A DNA stretch of 64,000 nt, taken from positions 34,232,598-34,296,597 of the forward strand of contig CM046858.1 of assembly GCA_025617745.1 (NCBI GenBank). The letters are read 5' to 3'. Within the stretch, counting starts at the first letter, position 1, and each line of letters starts with the position of its first letter. Of the stretch, positions 33,411 through 61,286 are shown piece by piece. Made by a program: the position numbers and the translations under genes. Source of the DNA: Heliocidaris erythrogramma (lineage: Eukaryota; Echinodermata; Echinoidea; Camarodonta; Echinometridae). The notes under the pieces were generated by a model. It was not told the DNA's origin, searched no databases, and saw nothing but the letters and a program-made list of their open reading frames with translations.

Positions 33411-33757
33411 GTATATATATATTCAAAAAAGTGATTTTTCTGTGCCATATCGAATTACCATAAACTTCTTATTCATATCCTCTAATCGTTAATAAATTAA
33501 TGAACAATCTTCAGTGCTGGATAAGAATGCGTAATATTGATGAAGATACTGTTTTGTATGATAGTAATATAACGAAAACAAACGCCTATAGTATGGAATA
33601 AAAAATAATTCCAGGTTGAGAAACATTAAGCTAGATACTGTAGACATCTTAGAAATCTTTGACGATGATGATGTTCAAAGGACGCAAAACGTCGTCTCCC
33701 ACTGTGAGGGTAAACTACAAGATACTACAAGATACACTGAAAAAAAACTCCTTGTGG
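33411..33757. other. No gene seen
   Basis: AT-rich sequence between the tRNA-unit array and the SINE. ATGATGATG and ACAAGATACTACAAGATACA short repeats only. Confidence 0.5.
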
Positions 33758-33931
33758 AGGTGTCGTGGTATGGTGGTTCATTCACTCAATCCAAGGGTTG
33801 AGGATTCGAATCTCAGCCCGGCACTAGCGTCTTTTGGAAAGACATTAATCCACATTTGCCACTCTCCACCCAGGTGTAGTAAATGGGTTCCTGGCAGGAT
33901 TTATTCCTTGAAATGCACTTTGCGCTCATTA

Positions 33932-34578
33932 TAGCCTTTACCAACGGCGAGTGAGCGCGATAATTATTACCGTGGCTGCAAGGGAGAGTAGCTTCAATGT
34001 GGGCAGCTTGCTGCTCACCGCCTTTATCCACCCGTATAAACGCGGGTTGTTTTTTTTTTTATCTTGACCATTGAAATCTGCGTCGTTTTCTGACGCAGAA
34101 TTCTCATACATATTAAATTACCTCTAGAGAAAGTAACCAATCACGAACACCGTGAGGTAAACTCATCATGCAAATTTTTTTTGTCACGTGATTGATCGTG
34201 ACGTTTCACCCTGCTTTATCCAAAATGGCGAGTTCCACCAGCTTCGACGATCTTCTTCAGACTTCACGATAGTTTGAAATATGCCGCCAGCAAATTGAAG
34301 ATTCCAGCTGAAAAATTCAAGGAATTACAGGAGACTGCGATAAGATATGTTCTTGCGGGGGAAGGATTTTTCCATAGCGCTACCCACTGGTTTTGGCAAA
34401 AGTGCCATTTACGAAGCGATTCCTTTGTGTTGCGATTTCCTTTGTGAACGGCAGTACTTTGATGCGTTACGGGTGGATAAAGCTAGCTGCCCACATTGCA
34501 GCTAGTCTCCCTTGCAGCCACAGTAATGTTATCGCGCTCACTAATATTATCGCGCTCACTCGCCGTTGGTAAAGGCTA
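33932..34578 (+). mobile_element. Pack-MULE-like element carrying a helicase gene fragment
   Basis: Inverted arms of about 110 bases begin TAGCCTTTACCAACGGCG on both sides and share GAGTGAGCGCGATAA, GTGGCTGCAAGGGAGA, TGTGGGCAGCT and TTTATCCACCCGTA. The flanks CGCTCATTA (33923-33931) and CGCTGATTA (34579-34587) are a 9-bp duplication with one change, and the SINE it interrupts becomes continuous when it is removed. Nine-bp duplications and long inverted ends are the Mutator-superfamily signature. The interior is not transposase but a RecQ-like host gene fragment (34225-34466) with its upstream sequence, the defining trait of a Pack-MULE. Confidence 0.75.
34225..34466 (+). pseudogene. Captured 5' fragment of a RecQ-like DNA helicase gene
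   Basis: Starts at an ATG in context CAAAATGG (MASSTSFDDLLQ), then in shifted frames KLKIPAEKFKELQETAIRYV and LPTGFGKSAIYEAIPLCC, followed by DFLCERQYFDA. TGFGKS is the Walker A/helicase motif I of RecQ-type ATP-dependent DNA helicases. Q-motif-like text precedes it, as in the family. Two frameshifts break the reading frame (near 34270 and 34350), and everything after motif I is missing because the right arm of the carrying element starts there. Upstream 34060-34224 may be the parent gene's 5' flank (GGTCACGTGATT-like and CAAAATGGCG). The parent gene is not in the window. Confidence 0.75.
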
Positions 34579-34692
34579 CGCTGATTATGGCTGCCGGAGC
34601 TAAAGCTAAAACCCTTTGGAAGCGCATAGGGACGTTATATCATAATGTGATATGCGCTATACAAGAGGAGTGGTATTATTATTATTATTATT

Positions 34693-38963: not shown

Positions 38964-39319
38964 TGAGGTGTTGTGGATCAGTGGATAAGTCCCTGGACTG
39001 TGAACCACGAGGTCCGGGGTTCGAATCCCACCGCAGCACTAGCGTCCTTTGGCAAGAAGTTAATCTACATTTGCCACTCCTCCACCCAGGTGTTAAATGG
39101 GTACCCGGTAGGATGGCGAAAGTTAATGTCCTTTGCTTAGCATGTGTGCGCTTAACAGGCGACTGGCTGGAATACTCCCCAGGGAGCGGAGAATGTGCAT
39201 ACATCGTGTGCGGGCATGCCAGAATCCGATGACCAGGGTAATAATATATCTGTAAAGCGCTTAGAGACATCTCCGATGTATTAGGCGCTGTATAAAAGCT
39301 GAATATTATTATTATTATT
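38964..39319 (+). mobile_element. tRNA-derived SINE, complete
   Basis: Head GGTGTTGTGGATCAGTGG with B box GGGGTTCGAATCCC, central block TTAATCTACATTTGCCACTC and CACCCAGGTGTTAAATGG, 3' domain AAGCGCTTAGAGACATC and GGCGCTGTATAAAAGC, and an ATT tail. ATTTATGA at 38956-38963 and 39320-39327 is an 8-bp target duplication. Complete and moderately young. Confidence 0.9.
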
Positions 39320-39327
39320 ATTTATGA

Positions 39328-44721: not shown

Positions 44722-45226
44722 TCCCCTGCGGGTCGGGGAGTAGAATAGGCCCGCTGTGAACCTGCATGTCGTAAAAGGCGACTAAATGGAGCTCTGTTTG
44801 CCGTGGAGCGCGACCCGTGTCGGTGGAGAAAGGGATCCTGGTGATTGAGTGGAGGGTGAGACTGCGGTCCTCCTGAAACAACACATCACTTTGGCCCTGT
44901 ATTCACCTAGTCGGGAGGTTTAAGCTGGCCTGACTTAAATCAATCGGCTGGTGGTGTCTAGCCCTAGGATCTGAATTTTTACCTTTTTAGATGACGTTTT
45001 TTGTTACCTTGAACTTCAATACCTCTATTTGATATTGGTCTGAAATACTGATCCTAGAAGGCGACTGCTTAACAGGTCAATCAGGGTAGATATTGTTTTA
45101 TGTATATGTTTATATATTATATATATCCTCTCTGAGTATGTTACTATTGTATCCTTGTCGTTGGTATGAGTGAATACCCTCATATGATAACGTCCCCTTG
45201 TTGGGCTCCATGGTGGGTGGGGAACA

Positions 45227-46544
45227 ATGGTAATGAATATAAATCAATATAATATGGCTAAATCAAACAAAAGAATTCGAAGTGATTCCTCCGACTCTAT
45301 CTGTCCTGAATTTTTCCCTCATTTCCTTGTGATTGAGGCAATAGACCCAGCAAAACCATTAAAGATTTCTCCTTTTGCTATAAGCAAGGGTATTGAGGGG
45401 TTAATCGGATCTACAAAAAACATAAAGAGACTAAGATCAGGCAGTATATTGGTCGAGGTGGAAAAAGCTGTCCAGGCAAGTGGCTTGCTTAAGATTGATA
45501 ACTTTGTACAAATTCCTGTAAAAGTCATCGCTCACAAGACCTTAAATTCCTGCAAAGGGGTTTTAAGATGTCCCGACTTAAGGGACTGCGATGATGAAGA
45601 AATTTTGCAAGAACTTTCTGACCAACATGTCATCGATGTTAAGCGAGCTACTTTTTTACAGAATGGTTTAAGGAAACCTACTAATACACTGTTTTTAACT
45701 TTCGATCAGCCAAACCTTCCACAATATGTGAGGGTTGGTTACTTGAAAGTTGAAATAGAAAAATACATTCCAAACCCTATACGTTGTTTTAAATGCCAGA
45801 GATTTGGACATTTTAAAACAAGTTGCCAAAGAAAAGAATCCTGTGAAAAATGTGGTAGTGAAGAGCATAATGCCACTGATTGCCAGGCACAGATACAATG
45901 TATCAATTGCCATGGTAATCACTCTGCAAATTCTAAGGTATGTCCAAAATGGATTGAAGAAAAAGAAATACAAAGAATAAAGGCACTAAGAAACATTCCA
46001 TATCCAGAAGCAAAGAAGCTCTATCAGATCCAAAACAACAATGAACTGAATTCATATGCAAATAGGGTTAAACAAACAAAAGAGAATAACCAAGCAAATA
46101 GAGAGGTAAAACAATCACCCAAAGTAACAAGGGCTGTGCAAACTAATTTGACATGGTCATGTAACTTAGATAACCCAACCTTATTAAAACTTGATAATGA
46201 TTAACAAAGCAACTAACACCGAGAAAAGAAACACAATACAGAATCAGGGTCAAGAGAAAGCACAGACTAAATCTACACATGATCGTAGAAGTAGAAGTCT
46301 ATCTTGTGACCCTACTCCGAAAAATTCTAACATGTCTAAAGAAATCAAACAATCCAAAAATCATCCAACAAAGGATAAAAGTAAAGTGCAATCTAGTGTA
46401 ATTAAAAAGTCAACTGATGTGTTATCAACTAAAAATAGATATGAACCATTATTAGTGGAGGGGGTTGATGATATGGAAACTCTCCCCATTCACCAACCCT
46501 CTTCGAAACTTAAAATTATAAGGACTAATGAACGAGTCACATAA
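45227..46544 (+). pseudogene. LINE ORF1 (gag-like, zinc-knuckle protein)
   Basis: RNA-binding ORF1 protein of the LINE. The first frame (to 46204) has an RRM-like N-terminal region, then three CCHC knuckles: CFKCQRFGHFKTSC, CEKCGSEEHNATDC and CINCHGNHSANSKVC, at about residues 191-240. This set is typical of I/Jockey-superfamily ORF1. A +1 change near 46190-46200 moves the rest, a lysine- and serine-rich tail with NRYEPLLVEG near its end, to another frame (46191-46544). Stop codon TAA overlaps the ATG of ORF2 as TAATG (46542-46546). Start taken at 45227; in-frame ATGs follow shortly after, and the true start is uncertain. Confidence 0.85.
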
Positions 46545-49500
46545 TGCTGACTCAAAAAGAAAAGGCAGTTCTGCAATGAAACTGTCGTGGGCTTAAACCC
46601 AATTATGAGGAAATTAAGTGTCTCCTAATTAATCATAACCCTTATGTACATGTAGTTTGTTTACAGGAAACACTTTTAAAAGATTCAGACAAAAATTTAT
46701 TTAAGGGTTATGATATGTATAGTAAAACCAATAAATCTCTAATAGATGATAGGCCCATTGGAGGCTCCTCTATTTTAATAAAGAAAGGAATTCCACATGA
46801 AAATATTATACTTGATACTTGCATTCAGGCTGTAGCGGTTAAAACAACACTCCATCGCACAGTTACTATTTGTTCAATTTATATTCCTCCAAGGTATGAA
46901 TTGACACAAAATGAATTAAATAAACTAGTTGATCAACTTCCTGAACCATTTGTCCTATTAGGAGATTTTAATGCTCATAGTTCTCTTTGGGGATGCCAGA
47001 AGTCAAATAGACTCGGTAATATTTTAGAAATAATAATTGAAAACTTTGATTTATGTCTTTTAAATGATGATTCTTGTACATATCTTCATCCTGCCTCCGG
47101 TTCCACATCGGCTATTGATTTATCAATATGTTCAGCAAATATTATTATGGATTTTCACTGGCAGATACATAGTGATCAGTGTGGAAGTGATCATTTTCCT
47201 ATTTTTATTGACATTATTAAACCAATACCAGAAGAAAGAATTCCAAAGTGGCAACTTCAAAAAGCAAATTGGGGTGATTTCATAACACAGTGCAAACATA
47301 ATATTACGAAGGAACGTTTTGTGAACATCGCAGATTGTTTGACACTGTTTACAGACACATTACTGGACATAGCTAGCAAGACAATTCCCAAGTCTTCTAG
47401 CACCCTGCATAATAAACATAACCCTTGGTTTAATATAGAGTGCAAAGAAGCAGTTAAATGCCGAAAAGGGCACTAAGGAAATTCAACAAACAACCTACCA
47501 AAAATAATTTAATAAAATATCAAGAAGCACGAGCAAAGGCCCGAACTATAATCCAGAAAAATAGGAGAGAATCATGGAGAAAATTTGTCTCTAAACTAAA
47601 TACTCAAACTCCCATAAAGAAAGTATGGGATATGATTGGAAAAATAAGTGGAAAAAAGACAAATACATCTATTTCTCACTTAAATGACTCACATGGTAAT
47701 AAATGTACAGAAAATCAAGATATTGTCAACTTATTGGCAAATGAATTTGCAAACAATTCATCCTCCAAACATTATTCCCATACATTCCAGAACTATAAGA
47801 TCATAGCTGAGAAACAAAAAGTAAACTTTTTCTCAAATAATAGAGAGGATTATAATATTCCTTTTTCTCTTGCTGAACTAAATATTTCTCTTAATAAATG
47901 TCATGATACTGCAACTGGTCCAGATGATATTCATTATCAATTTCTTAAACATCTACCAGAAGAGTCTTTAATTGTTTTATTGGACATTATCAATGATATT
48001 TGGAGGAGAACTGGCAAATTTCCAAAATCATGGTGTGAAGCCATCATAATTCCCATCCCAAAGCCTGGGAAAGATGCATCTAACCCAACAAATTACCGTC
48101 CTATTTCTCTTACTAGTTGCCTATGTAAAACAATGGAAAGAATGATTAATGCTCGCCTAGTTTGGTTTTTAGAAAGAAATCATTTGATAACTGAATGTCA
48201 AAGTGGTTTTAGACATAATCGTACTACAACTGACCAACTTATCCGTCTTGAATCTTTTATACGAAATGGTATGGCCCGAGGTCACCATGTTGTCTCAATA
48301 TTCTTTGACCTTGAAAAGGCATATGACACAACTTGGAAGTATGGAATCCTTAAAGATCTTTATAATTTGGGTTGAGGGGCAGATTACCCACATTTATTGA
48401 GAGTTTCCTTTCACATCGGGTGTTTAGAGTTCGACTTGGGACCTCAATTTCTGAATTACATAATCAGGAAATGGTTGTTCCTCAAGGTAGTATACTTTCT
48501 GTTACCTTATTTCTAATTAAAATAAATAGTATCGTTGATGCTGTAAATCCTAGATTTGATAGATCATTATTTGTAGATGATTTTTCAATTTCTTGTTCAT
48601 CAACACAAATACCCATTATTGAGAGGCTATTACAAAATTGTCTTAACAGAATAGAGAAGTGGGCTGATGAGAACGGCTTCCGCTTTTCAAAAAAGAAAAC
48701 AGTATGTGTACACTTTTGTAATAAACGATCAATACATACAGATCCTCAAATAAGTATTAATGATGCTTTTATTCCCGTAGTTGAACAAGCCAAGTACCTT
48801 GGCTTAATTTTTGACAAACTTAATTTTAAAGCCCATATTGACTATGTTAGGAAATAATGTCATATATCCTTGACACTTTTGAAGGTGGTATCAAAAATGG
48901 ACTGGGGAGCTGACCGTATCGTATTGCTCCGTCTTTATCGATCATTAGTCCGATCAAAATTAGATTATGGTTGTCCAGTATATAGCTCTGCTAGACAATC
49001 TTACCTTGAAAAGCTGATACCTATTCAGAACCAAGGTCTCAGGCTTAGTCTTGGGGCGTATCGCACTTCCCCTATGGAGAGTCTCTATATAGAGGCCAGT
49101 GAACCTCCATTATTTTTGAGATATGAAAAACTATCATTACAATACGCACTGAAACTTAAAAATAACCCTCGAAACCCAACATATGAAGGTACATTTGTAC
49201 CACCATTCATTAATTTCTACACTAGTAAACCGTCAGCAATTCGACCTTTTGGCTTTCGTATCAAAGAAGCTCTCTTACAGATACTAACTACTGATAAGAT
49301 AGCTCCCTTTTTGGTTCCCACTAAAGGAATTTAAGAAGGGCACCGTTAGTGATTTAGTTTTCCAAAATGCATTTTTTGAACTTAAGAATAAATATTGTAA
49401 CTATCGTGCAATTTATACAGATGGGTCAAAGTACCAAAATAAAGTAGGTGCAGCAGCTACAAGCAGTTCGTTGCAAGTACAAATAAGATTGCCAGATAGT

Positions 49501-50205
49501 TCATCTATATTCTCTGCCGAGTTAGTGGCCCTAGGGATAGCTTTCGATATTATAGAAATCTGTGATGAACAGCGTTTCATCATTTTTACGGATTCCCTGT
49601 CGAGCTTAACGGCAATACAGGGAAGATGTCATAAACACCCATATGTTAGTCAATTATTAAAAACACAGTTTAAGATAAATGCTATGGGGAAAAGTGTAAT
49701 TTTTGCTTGGATTCCAAGTCATACAGGTATTAAAGGCAATGAAACTGCAGATAGGTTGGCAAGAGAAGCTTTAAATGAGGATATTACAAATATCCACATT
49801 CCTTGCAGTGATTTAAGAACAAAGATCAACAGTTACATTAAAAAGAAATGGCAAGCATTATGGAACTCTCATCCCAAGAATAAACTCTATCAACTTCAAC
49901 CTTCCATTGAACCTCGCCTCACATCTCCATTGTCTCGCCGGAGAGAGGACATTGTTTTGACCAGGGCTCGTATTGGTCATACATATTTAACACAATCATA
50001 TTTACTTAAAGCTGAGAACCCACCTAACTGTATAGCGTGTAACTGCCCACTCACAGTTAAACACATTCTTCTTGATTGTGTTGAATTTTCTCCAATTCGA
50101 ACCAAGTACTATACTGTTTCCGACTTGAAGACTTTATTCAGAGATATTCCTCAATCAAATATAATAGAATATCTTAAAGAGATTAAACTTTTTGTCCATT
50201 TTTGA
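46544..50205 (+). pseudogene. LINE ORF2 (endonuclease, reverse transcriptase, RNase H)
   Basis: Starts at the ATG of TAATG. Endonuclease: N-C-R-G-L block, CLQETLL, GDFNAHSSLWG, SAIDLSI and SDHFPIFI. Reverse transcriptase: NYRPISLTSCLCKTMERMI, FFDLEKAYDTTW (motif A), VVPQGSILS (motif B), LFVDDFSISC (motif C, catalytic DD kept). RNase H (49,4-49.8 kb): YTDGSK, SAELVALG, FTDSLSSL and SHTGIKGNETADRLA, with all four acidic or equivalent sites kept. A Cys/His knuckle (CIACNCPLTVKHILLDC) ends the protein. Lesions: TGA at the tryptophan of L-Q-W-N-C (46574 area), frame changes near 47460, 48370 and 49330, and an in-frame stop at 48858. Confidence 0.9.
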
Positions 50206-57446: not shown

Positions 57447-57739
57447 AGGTAGGCACGCCAACACATCAGGAAAGCGCAGTTTTTGTGTGGGCATATTGCA
57501 CAGGCATTTTTGTACACAAGGTCTACCAAAGCAGATCTCATTGCTCATGATTTGGAAATAACAAAGTGATGAAAATCTTATACATTTTTTAACATGAAAA
57601 AGGATTTGTTGTTCATCATTAATCATTCGTACCGAATGTGAACCACGACACAAATTTGCAATTAATTTCTGAATTTTGGCCAATTTCATTTTTCTCCATA
57701 CCAATCTTTGAATTTATCACACAGAATCTTGATGTCAGC
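57447..57739. other. Upstream of the NLR leader exon
   Basis: No repeats recognised. CACACAG at 57718-57724 is a possible splice acceptor just before the leader exon, and an open frame extends from it into the exon, so a 5' untranslated or further coding exon upstream is possible. No clear TATA box. Confidence 0.45.
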
Positions 57740-58537
57740 ATGCCTGTTTCTCTCGGCGATTGGCGTGTCAGGATTGGCACGTTCCTGCGACGGAAGCGGA
57801 AAGAATATGATTACAACCACTTTCTGAGGAAACTTTTCAATTTAGCTAAAAGAACTGGAAATTCTAAGTCACGAGACGATAACAATCCTGAGTGTTCATC
57901 TACCAATAAGCCTTCAAAGGATGCTAATAGTTCCGGGGGTAACACGTCTCGTCACACTGGGTCTTCATGTAATGACAACGTTTCCCCATGTGACCTTACC
58001 TCTCATGCAGAACCATCATGTGAGGTCAATAGTGACTTGCCTATGGGTGACTCTACCGATCAGCCTATGTCCCCATGTGACGTCAATAGTCCTGGATGTG
58101 ATATTGTCACTAGTGGATCTTTATGTAATGTCAAAAGTCCTGGTAGTAACACTGCCCATCACTCTGAGTCTTCATGTCCTAAGAACAGTTCTTCTACGAC
58201 CGCGAATGAGAACGGTGCTGTTCCCGATTCCACTGAGAAGCGAAATCCATTTACCCGACCATGTACAGAAGATGATGAGAAGAATTATTCGCAGTTCTCC
58301 AACTCCGCTGCAATAAGCAACACAGACCAAAATGATGTTGGCATGGTACGACCGCATTCGGACTCACCTGCAGCCGTGTCTGCTGAGCCAGTGTATGACC
58401 TGGACTGTACCGCACTAGATGAGGAAGAAACAGCGAAACCTTCAGAGTTCTGGAGAGAGGACCAACTATCGGGCATATCACCTAAACCTGGAAAACCTTT
58501 ACCAAGAAACGATCAGCAAGCAGCAACACGCATAAGA
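57740..58537 (+). CDS. Leader exon of the NLR gene
   Basis: Encodes about 266 residues from the first ATG (57740), with donor AAGA|GTAAGA. The N-terminus MPVSLGDWRVRIGTFLRRKR is basic and has a W-x-x-R-I-G-x-F motif; then comes a long Ser/Asn/Asp-rich, likely disordered stretch containing four imperfect Cys-bearing units (SPCDLTS, PSCEVNS, SPCDVNS, GSLCNVKS) spaced about 20 residues apart, and finally an acidic-to-basic end (DLDCTALDEEETAKPSE). No signal peptide or membrane segment. The last codon ends in phase 0 and the next exon begins in phase 0. I do not recognise a family for it. The ATG at 57740 is chosen because the frame upstream has no ATG and enters a likely acceptor. Confidence 0.6.
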
Positions 58538-61286
58538 GTAAGATTGATTGTATTTTCATTTGACAGTATCGGTGTGAGGTAAGAAGCAAAACAAAACTAA
58601 ACAAATAATATAATATAACAAAAAAGGTTTTCTAGAAAAAGTAACGTGTAAGGTTATAGCTCCATCACATTTTGATACTTCAATCAAAAAAATAATAATC
58701 AAAATTACTATGGGAATCATGTTCGTTGCTTTAAAGGTTGACTAAATTAGCGAGAAAATGGGTGCTCTTTCCATGTAGATTTGCCTTCTAATCACGAATC
58801 TGCCAATCGATTGTCCAAATTATGTCTCGTTTTGGCGAAAAGGGGGGGGGGGAAGTATAGGTTTTGGGACCTTTCCTTAAAACTCGTGAGCTGATTGGCT
58901 AACCCCCAAGTGACGTATGAAAAGTAAGAGGCACAAGATCTGCAGGCTGCAGCATATAATATTGTACACAGAATGCGGTATTTGACCCCTCTGTTCAACG
59001 GACAATTTATGAAAAAAGGAGATTAATCAATATAATCTTAGGAGTGAATAATCATTAGCAATATATTTTCTACAAGAAAAACGCTTTTGCCCAAATATAC
59101 AGCTCTTGTTTTGTTTTTTAGCTTTTCTTTTGAACAATGTTCTCATCCATCTGAGCTTGCCGAACGAAAGTTTTGCATTGGTCATAAACGCGTGCACAGC
59201 CGTTTTATGCGTCTGTATGTACAATGTCCTACACATTTTTATTAAGACAGTGACTATGTTCCCCTCGTACATAGCGACTGGTGAACGCTTTTGTTTTGTT
59301 TATTTCACTTTTTTTTGTTTCCTTCGCTTTACATAATACGTTAGTACTGACTTAGATTTTGGCTGAATTCGAGTAACTTATATAGAGAGAGGAAAAGTGC
59401 CCGCGATTCCGAGTTGGAGGACTTTTCTGAGCCATGCAGATACGAACTCTGATTTATCAGATGATTTATCAGACCCCGAAGGCAAAGAAGCTGGAGTGGC
59501 AATGGGAAATTCGACCATATTATATGTTTGAACCCCTCGCAGAATACGGTGAAGGGCCGTGGGTGAAGTTACTCCAAGGGAGCTCCAACGCGTTGGAGCT
59601 CCCTGGAGTTACGGGTAAAGTAGACCGAAAATGCTGTCTCTCGTTCGACGAACGAGTGACAGAATTTTCGGTCTACGGATGAAGCTGCTGCAGCTGCTGT
59701 CGTTGAAAAAAAGATTGGAAGACTTGACTCCAAGTCTGATCGTTGGAATAGCTGAATATTTTAGCTAGCTTATCCTTCTCTTCATGCCAAATTCGGAATA
59801 CAGGCCAGGATCCTCAAAATCATCTTCGGCAAAGTGATCGCTGCAGATTGTACTCCACTCACTTGGCCGGCCCTTGCCACTCTGCCCGCGTGAGCTTTAC
59901 ATTTGCGACCCACAATTTCTGCAGATTTTCATCTTTAGGAAAATGATGTAGGCTTACACCATTTTTAGGGGTCTTTCTACAGCCCGCAACTATAAACCGA
60001 TTAGCCATTATTGATGAAACTGTATCCCAAAATCAGTTATTGTGAGGAATTAAACACACGAAAATACGAAATGAAAATGCTCGATGCGGTGAATATCATG
60101 CTCGGCACCGGGCTAGGCCTGCCGGGGGCCTCCGGGCGCGCACGGTATAGGTTAGTGGAATATTTTCCCTTACTTTTCATGCGTCACAGATCACGTGATC
60201 ACGATGTCGCTTCGATGGGTTTTTTTAGGGGCGGGGCTTATGACTGTGTAAATCAGCAAAAATGTACTTTTCAAATGATTATAAAATGTGACTGAATGCA
60301 TACAAAATTGTGGGATGGATATTTTTTGGCTCCTGATGACACCTTCCTACGAAAAATGGGCAATTATTTTTTTATTTTAGTGACCCTTTAAAAATGCTAA
60401 TCTGTTTCACTTGTGATTCTTGTATCCGAATGATATTCTACTAAATGTCCTCTGTTATTTTAATAAGAGTTGTCTATTTGATTTTGCTCTAATTATGTCT
60501 TCTGTGATGTTTATTCTTAATATTCTTCTCTCTTTAGGAAGAAATGGAAGACAAATCACTAATCTATACTGCCATCGGGTCAGGAATAACCTGCAATGAG
60601 GATAATGCAGTCGAAGGCAGTGACCGTCGAGACTTGACCAGCGTGCTCCTATTGAGATCCGGTGACGTAGAACTCAATCCTGGTCCAAATGACACGTAAG
60701 TTAAACTTGAAAAGTTCGCTTGTAAAAGACATTTAAAATATAGGTGATGGGTTATGAAACAAGCAGTACGAGCTTCCCATATTTTGTTTTGTTGCAGGCT
60801 TGCGTATTTTCCCGTTTATTAAGTTATGAAGACAAATAAGGATTTCAAATGTGAACGCAAGAGAGAATAATAAAATACAAATAGTAAGCATATGCATTCT
60901 CCTGAAACACTTTATGACATGAATTATTCTCTTTTAATGATTTAGACCTGGAAATTTGACCGAGTACGAGCTCTATCTCCTTGCTGATGGTTTGGATGCA
61001 TCAGATTTCAGGAAAGTGGGACTAGCATTAAGATTCTCTGAGGCTGCACTCAGTCGGTTTGAGAAAGACCAGGGTAACACCATGCAAGCTACCTATCAGA
61101 TGCTCTATGAGTGGCGCAAAACAGTACGTGATAGCGAGGCGAGAACAACGTTGATCAGCACGTTAGAAAGCATTCAGCTGATGCAGCTTGCCGATAGTTT
61201 GCGCCAAGGTAGGCCTGTGGTAAAGTAATCTTAACTACTTCAACAACAGCAGCAACTATAATAATTTTAATTGAAATTATAATGAA

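Follow-up and report, generated by a model that had tools for sequence, protein, structure and literature searches.

A short inverted-repeat transposon family with a RecQ helicase 5' fragment in the sea urchin Heliocidaris erythrogramma is probably new within a known kind of transposon

The window analysed here, a stretch of 64,000 nucleotides of Heliocidaris erythrogramma DNA (C6:34232598-34296597 in the 1.064-Gb genome that was searched), contains at positions 33932-34578 an element of 647 bp, which represents a complete but degenerate copy of a transposon with terminal inverted repeats (TIRs). Its left arm starts with TAGCCTTTACCAACGG (33932..34036, plus strand) and its right arm, which includes an 18-bp subterminal unit twice, ends with GGTAAAGGCTA (34468..34578, plus strand). 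The arms, of 105 and 111 bp, can be paired if indels are allowed, with 100% complementarity over their outermost 33 bp and 91% over another block of 47 nt, in agreement with the inverted arms of about 110 bp given in the preliminary description. The target site duplication (TSD, without strand) reads CGCTCATTA on the left (33923..33931) and CGCTGATTA on the right (34579..34587); these flanks are identical at 8/9 positions, which bears out the earlier reading of a 9-bp duplication with one mismatch, and a duplicate of the locus (L003, C6:33121883-33122579) has CGCTGATTA on both sides. As the window copy and L003 are 96-97% alike over approximately 3 kb, the element included, the two represent one insertion that was duplicated later. 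A SINE had been named as the target, and comparison of the flanks supported this assignment: its left part (33757..33931, plus strand, limits approximate) has a second copy in the window at 39017-39322, whose segment 39017-39114 matches the left flank at 84%, while within its right part (34588..34690, plus strand, limits approximate) positions 34645-34689 match 39276-39322 of the same copy at 77% (E 6e-4). Since both flanks match this one copy in the same order, the SINE seems continuous across the insertion; when the joined flanks were aligned to the copy at 39017-39322, one alignment covered the left part only. Elsewhere, the window holds a non-LTR retrotransposon at 45191-50205, with pieces of endonuclease, reverse transcriptase and RNase H (Pfam) in several frames, and at 57623-58582 an open frame of 319 aa with a repetitive middle and without a Pfam match.

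Between the arms lies the 5' fragment of a RecQ helicase gene, extending from the ATG to motif I (LPTGFGKS; 34225..34461, plus strand) and preceded, 5' of the helicase start codon, by a region that presumably corresponds to the promoter and 5' UTR of a transposon RecQ gene (34037..34224, plus strand). In the window copy, the ATG at 34225 and LPTGFGKS are present and the fragment is frameshifted, its reading passing through all three frames. When joined by hand, 72 aa of the fragment matched Pfam DEAD with E 7.5e-5 and 23 bits (curated threshold 26), and 84 aa matched RECQ1 chains with E 1.4e-4. The consensus of the family is open, with a frame that runs from the ATG through LPTGFGKS to approximately codon 80 and then on into other sequence, and 17/24 family elements begin with MASS and are unbroken through FGKS, in a set that is biased towards intact frames. 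The start codon region and the helicase motif I text noticed earlier between the arms are a true RecQ-type 5' fragment.

The element recurs throughout the genome. A search with the whole element revealed 157 matching pieces (40/125 candidates scored), and the terminal 24-mer, with at most 2 mismatches allowed, gave 94 + 89 = 183 genome matches by strand, compared with 0 + 0 for a reversed control, so that the arms occur well beyond this one site. The 100/183 end matches that were listed divide into 74 with a match to the family RecQ fragment at a distance of at most 2.5 kb and 26 without one. Target site duplications were analysed for 27 elements, which were left from 38 loci after 8 had been set aside because no pair of ends could be matched with 3 mismatches or fewer, and another 3 because they repeated a place already counted. 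At 9 bp, the duplication was perfect in 17 elements, had one mismatch in 5, two in 1 and 3-6 in the other 4; at most one mismatch was hence found in 22/27 at this length, against 0, 0, 1 and 0 of 27 at 7, 8, 10 and 11 bp, respectively, and in 7/702 cross-paired flanks used as a control at 9 bp. As L003, L023, L031 and L037 each share a flank with another element, approximately 23/27 sites are independent. Identity of the 27 elements to a consensus of 24 ranges from 96.8 to 99.7% (gaps excluded), which indicates that the family is fairly young.

The copies measured are mostly 0.63-0.85 kb long. Six elements that were compared fall into length forms of 854-840, 727-724 and 696 bp that agree in their left portion and at their right end and differ in how much is missing in between, as successive internal deletions would give. 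Longer members (L017, L023, L029, L051, L053 and L055) have additional sequence either 5' or 3' of the RecQ piece, and inspection by eye of the stretches viewed of L017, L029 and L051 revealed no further RecQ. All 27 measured elements have one and the same RecQ piece with its upstream region; this common interior is no test of cargo, since these elements were found by searching with the element or its protein. A search of viral contigs by end pattern and by protein yielded nothing useful.

A search of the genome with the fragment protein (150/862 candidates scored) revealed a second RecQ group at 53-57% identity to the window-family fragment. The sister family (L041-L050) has elements of 1.0-1.07 kb, with one pair of ends 1.9 kb apart, and TAGCC ends (TAGCCTCTTGTCGAGGCC). 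Both ends were present in 7/10 fetched loci, and among these the 9-bp TSD was perfect in 5/7 and had one mismatch in 1/7; L043 was a miss at 9 bp, although inspection by eye showed CCGTAGGCC as a repeat on the assumption that TA has been lost from the left end of L043. In L048, the sister element that was read whole, a RecQ gene starts a short way in from one end, and the sister-family RecQ start is 55% identical to the window-family fragment over 69 aa. Such a homologous gene start in the same place in two families with distinct arms is expected if their parents carried the gene. A third short family, with ends TAGCCTTTTGACA, was found nested in window-family copies, at 1223-1800 of L051 (578 bp) and at approximately 1221-1817 of L053, and its 9-bp duplications are CCCGTAACG (perfect) and CAATATGGG/CAATGTGGG.

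When seven N-terminal pieces of RecQ were placed in a tree, which rests on approximately 75 residues per fragment with the fragments filling about 40% of the columns, both short families grouped with the transposon RecQs of C14 and C1, apart from the host RecQs, with a support of 100/99. The host RecQs were those of C12 and C15 (two copies), which we took to be host genes from their many exons. BLAST within the same set of seven sequences gave E 1.7e-16 to the C14 RecQ versus 2.8e-8 to the best host RecQ, and when the consensus fragment is aligned with a complete transposon RecQ, 48% of 58 aa are identical (E 1.7e-16). Judged by these sequence comparisons, the piece of helicase most likely remains from a transposon's own helicase gene and was not taken from a host gene. 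The preliminary description had proposed a captured helicase piece that includes possible upstream promoter sequence. The upstream sequence is indeed present, with the promoter presumed; capture from a host gene is not supported, as the fragment groups with transposon RecQs and not with the three host RecQs.

The search of the genome with the RecQ profile TIGR00614 (37/828 candidates scored) revealed many-exon genes, taken as host genes, as well as two-exon genes on C1, C4, C6, C14 and C17. At C14:28524539-28537581 (L072/L068/L071/L073/L075/L076), the RecQ belongs to an element of 13,043 bp with the ends TAGTCCA...TGGACTA and ATTAGTATA on both sides. This element carries the RecQ gene, with DEAD and Helicase_C, near one end and a convergent DUF6589 gene on the other strand (two exons, Pfam 2.1e-21 and 2.3e-8). 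A second copy at C17:21148842-21161770, of which the outer parts were read, occupies another site with the duplication TATCACCGC/TATCACCCC and is 99.7% identical to the C14 element over the 4.1 kb compared. As the two are near-identical at different sites, the element has moved, probably recently. DUF6589 gave 34 genome matches (64/64 candidates scored), and each of the best three (C1, C17 and C14) has a convergent RecQ at a distance of 4-6 kb; 2 of the other 31 are further exons at C14 and C17, and the remaining ones have, by eye, no listed TIGR00614 RecQ within 15 kb. Viewed from the listed RecQ loci, DUF6589 is nearby at only three, namely C1, C14:28.5 Mb and C17, and by eye there is none nearby at others, e.g. 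C4, C6, C11, C14:17.8 Mb, C3 and C10. The pair on C1 (C1:514008-522338; L061, L078, L079) is a more distant convergent combination of RecQ and DUF6589, and its RecQ-side end seems, by eye, to be TAGTCTAGTTCTGG. Comparison of the DUF6589 protein with the PDB gave a best E of 0.02, mostly to zinc fingers, comparison of the right-hand portion of the short families with the C14 DUF6589 gene gave no match, and the literature searched held no paper that connects DUF6589 with transposons. A fragment of a YqaJ-like nuclease (Pfam E 1.2e-4) was observed at approximately 486-808 of L067 (C6:46928016-46931900), where it adjoins a C14-type RecQ copy at the point at which that copy ceases to match C14.

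We consider it likely that the window element is a mutated copy of a deletion-derived, non-autonomous (MITE-like) family of the AcademH type. According to this reading, a larger cut-and-paste transposon with its own RecQ gene just inside one end would have lost its middle, and what remained would have been the two arms, the upstream region and approximately 80 codons from the start of RecQ. The parental kind would have been AcademH-like, combining RecQ with a convergent DUF6589 gene, ends starting with TAG[C/T]C and 9-bp target duplications, and the window family's own parent presumably resembled the ~13-kb RecQ+DUF6589 elements. DUF6589 itself is, we infer, the (Academ) transposase, and the lineage as a whole would belong to AcademH. 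Mobilisation probably took place in trans, with the transposase, perhaps together with the helicase, of a related full-length element acting on the ends, while some copies may have shrunk further, to bare arms. The window copy would have inserted into the SINE, become one of the two copies of that insertion and decayed.

On this reading, the RecQ piece would be a passenger. The proposal that the RecQ start region is kept because a short N-terminal product or transcript regulates or assists transposition, for which the retention of one piece, upstream region and approximately 80 initial codons, in two arm-distinct families could be quoted, appears unlikely to us. In the RecQ frame of the short elements, 18/46 distinct changes were synonymous versus 24% expected (simulated P 0.019), and among private changes the same test gave 16/43 (P 0.041), with 21/24 elements used and L001, L022 and L037 excluded as duplicates. 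We do not count this excess as evidence, since most loci were fetched as the best scorers of a protein search, which favours intact, conservative copies.

Family members without RecQ exist and count against a derivation by deletion. Seven of the 26 RecQ-less end matches (among the 100/183 listed) were read in stretches. The pair at C13:3822187-3822734 (L082, 548 bp) encloses two tandem SINE-like units, with 7/7 visible flank bases repeated. A pair 6,448 bp long at C12:39482655-39489102 (L080/L081) has the perfect duplication CTTTTTGCG and starts with the same SINE in the same place as the C13 pair; as SINE sequence lies just inside its left arm and the end of that SINE near its right arm, a nested insertion is likely. 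This C12 pair had been a candidate for the autonomous partner and was rejected because of the SINE inside the arms (1.4 of 6.4 kb read). L085 (C8:5972941) consists of two arms back to back, and in L084 an arm is followed by a broken second arm and near-unique DNA, this interior matching itself and one place 160 kb off at 99%. By coordinates, a further end pair at C1:22241008-22241134 spans 127 bp. From the SINE-filled and back-to-back interiors it follows that members consisting of arms only, or filled with SINE sequence, bear the family ends as well. The 7/26 RecQ-less end matches read showed no cargo from a host gene, the interior of L083 being unclassified.

Arms-only members such as L085 could have received a RecQ piece, and an AcademH-type short element might therefore have gained it secondarily from another AcademH element by recombination. 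Such an origin would agree with our finding no full-length element with the window family's own ends among the 100/183 end matches listed, and with the great difference in arm length between the short families (approximately 105-130 bp) and the full elements (approximately 7 bp of matching ends); both observations also weigh against the deletion reading. We nevertheless regard the secondary gain as unlikely, given that the two short families and the full C14 element all have the RecQ start at a few hundred bp from one end, and that the length forms indicate shrinkage of the deletion-derived kind.

Mutator-like elements make 9-bp duplications, and together with arms of approximately 110 bp this feature had led the preliminary description to place the element in the Mutator superfamily. 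MULE transposases do occur in the genome, with 31 matches (82/82 candidates scored), one of which (C13:35263493) lies approximately 10 kb from the family copy C13:35252252-35253879. However, by eye 0/31 lie near a listed TIGR00614 RecQ match (37/828 RecQ candidates scored), and complete RecQs of the clade to which the fragment belongs reside in ~13-kb DUF6589 elements with 9-bp TSDs, which speaks against that placement. A true animal Pack-MULE, in which a non-autonomous element of the Mutator-like kind took up the beginning of a host RecQ gene and multiplied afterwards, is in our view very unlikely. Some family members do have other interiors, as a capturing element would, but those read proved to be SINE units, a broken arm or nothing, apart from the unclassified L083, and the second family, despite its different arms, has a homologous RecQ start in the same place. 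With the fragment in the transposon RecQ clade rather than among host RecQs and MULE transposases absent from the vicinity of the listed RecQs, the Pack-MULE was rejected as the best reading. A literature search joining RecQ, Mutator, transposon and coral found nothing. The chance that the element is an ordinary MITE with helicase-like text by coincidence is negligible and we rule it out, for the low score that the window piece by itself obtained against Pfam is outweighed by a consensus open for approximately 80 codons from the ATG through motif I, by its E of 1.7e-16 to a transposon RecQ and its RecQ grouping, and by the recurrence of the element genome-wide in 157 pieces, which means that the helicase fragment is not due to chance.

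These results suggest that a helicase-bearing transposon lineage combined with internal deletion can mimic a Pack-MULE, and that the inference of gene capture is probably wrong here. Calling every 9-bp TIR element Mutator-like, or every fragment of this sort a captured gene, would misfile the window family. A genome with near-identical ~13-kb RecQ+DUF6589 elements at two sites and short families besides offers a setting in which the roles of DUF6589 and the helicase can be probed.

AcademH was reportedly defined, as part of the Academ superfamily, by Kojima in 2020 (Mob DNA 11:15) in a paper that is said to name animals in its title. According to PMC10045372 and PMC10799480, AcademH transposons carry a helicase gene, and PMC10045372 gives duplications of 9 or 10 bp for AcademH and of 3 or 4 bp for AcademX, a difference that is perhaps due to whether a helicase or a nuclease is encoded. 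A RecQ helicase is named in Academ in PMC3627910, which also gives the MuDr duplication as 9 bp. The elements described here resemble AcademH in a transposon-carried helicase gene, present as a RecQ 5' remnant in the window family and as a complete RecQ in both the C14 element and the C17 copy, and in 9-bp duplications compared with the 9 or 10 bp reported (at most one mismatch in 22/27 at 9 bp and in 1/27 at 10 bp). In contrast to AcademH, the window family is without a transposase, its helicase is cut to approximately 80 codons and its arms measure approximately 110 bp. Non-autonomous Academ elements are described from the fungus Marasmius oreades in PMC8290104, and are likewise short and classified on their end motif and the length of their duplication; they differ in being fungal, and a helicase remnant is not mentioned in the passage concerned. 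KolobokH, in which a RecQ lies downstream of the transposase according to PMC9587614, is another DNA transposon that encodes a RecQ helicase, but Kolobok duplications are TTAA there, whereas the window and sister families make 9-bp, non-TTAA duplications. The Pack-MULEs of plants, as presented in PMC6431247, are non-autonomous elements with inverted arms and a gene fragment inside. The window family is like them in these features and also has the 9-bp duplication of Mutator-like elements; unlike theirs, its fragment belongs to the transposon RecQ clade and not to a host gene. Overall, the window family appears to be a new addition to a kind of transposon that is already known, and not a plant-style gene-capturing element in an animal.
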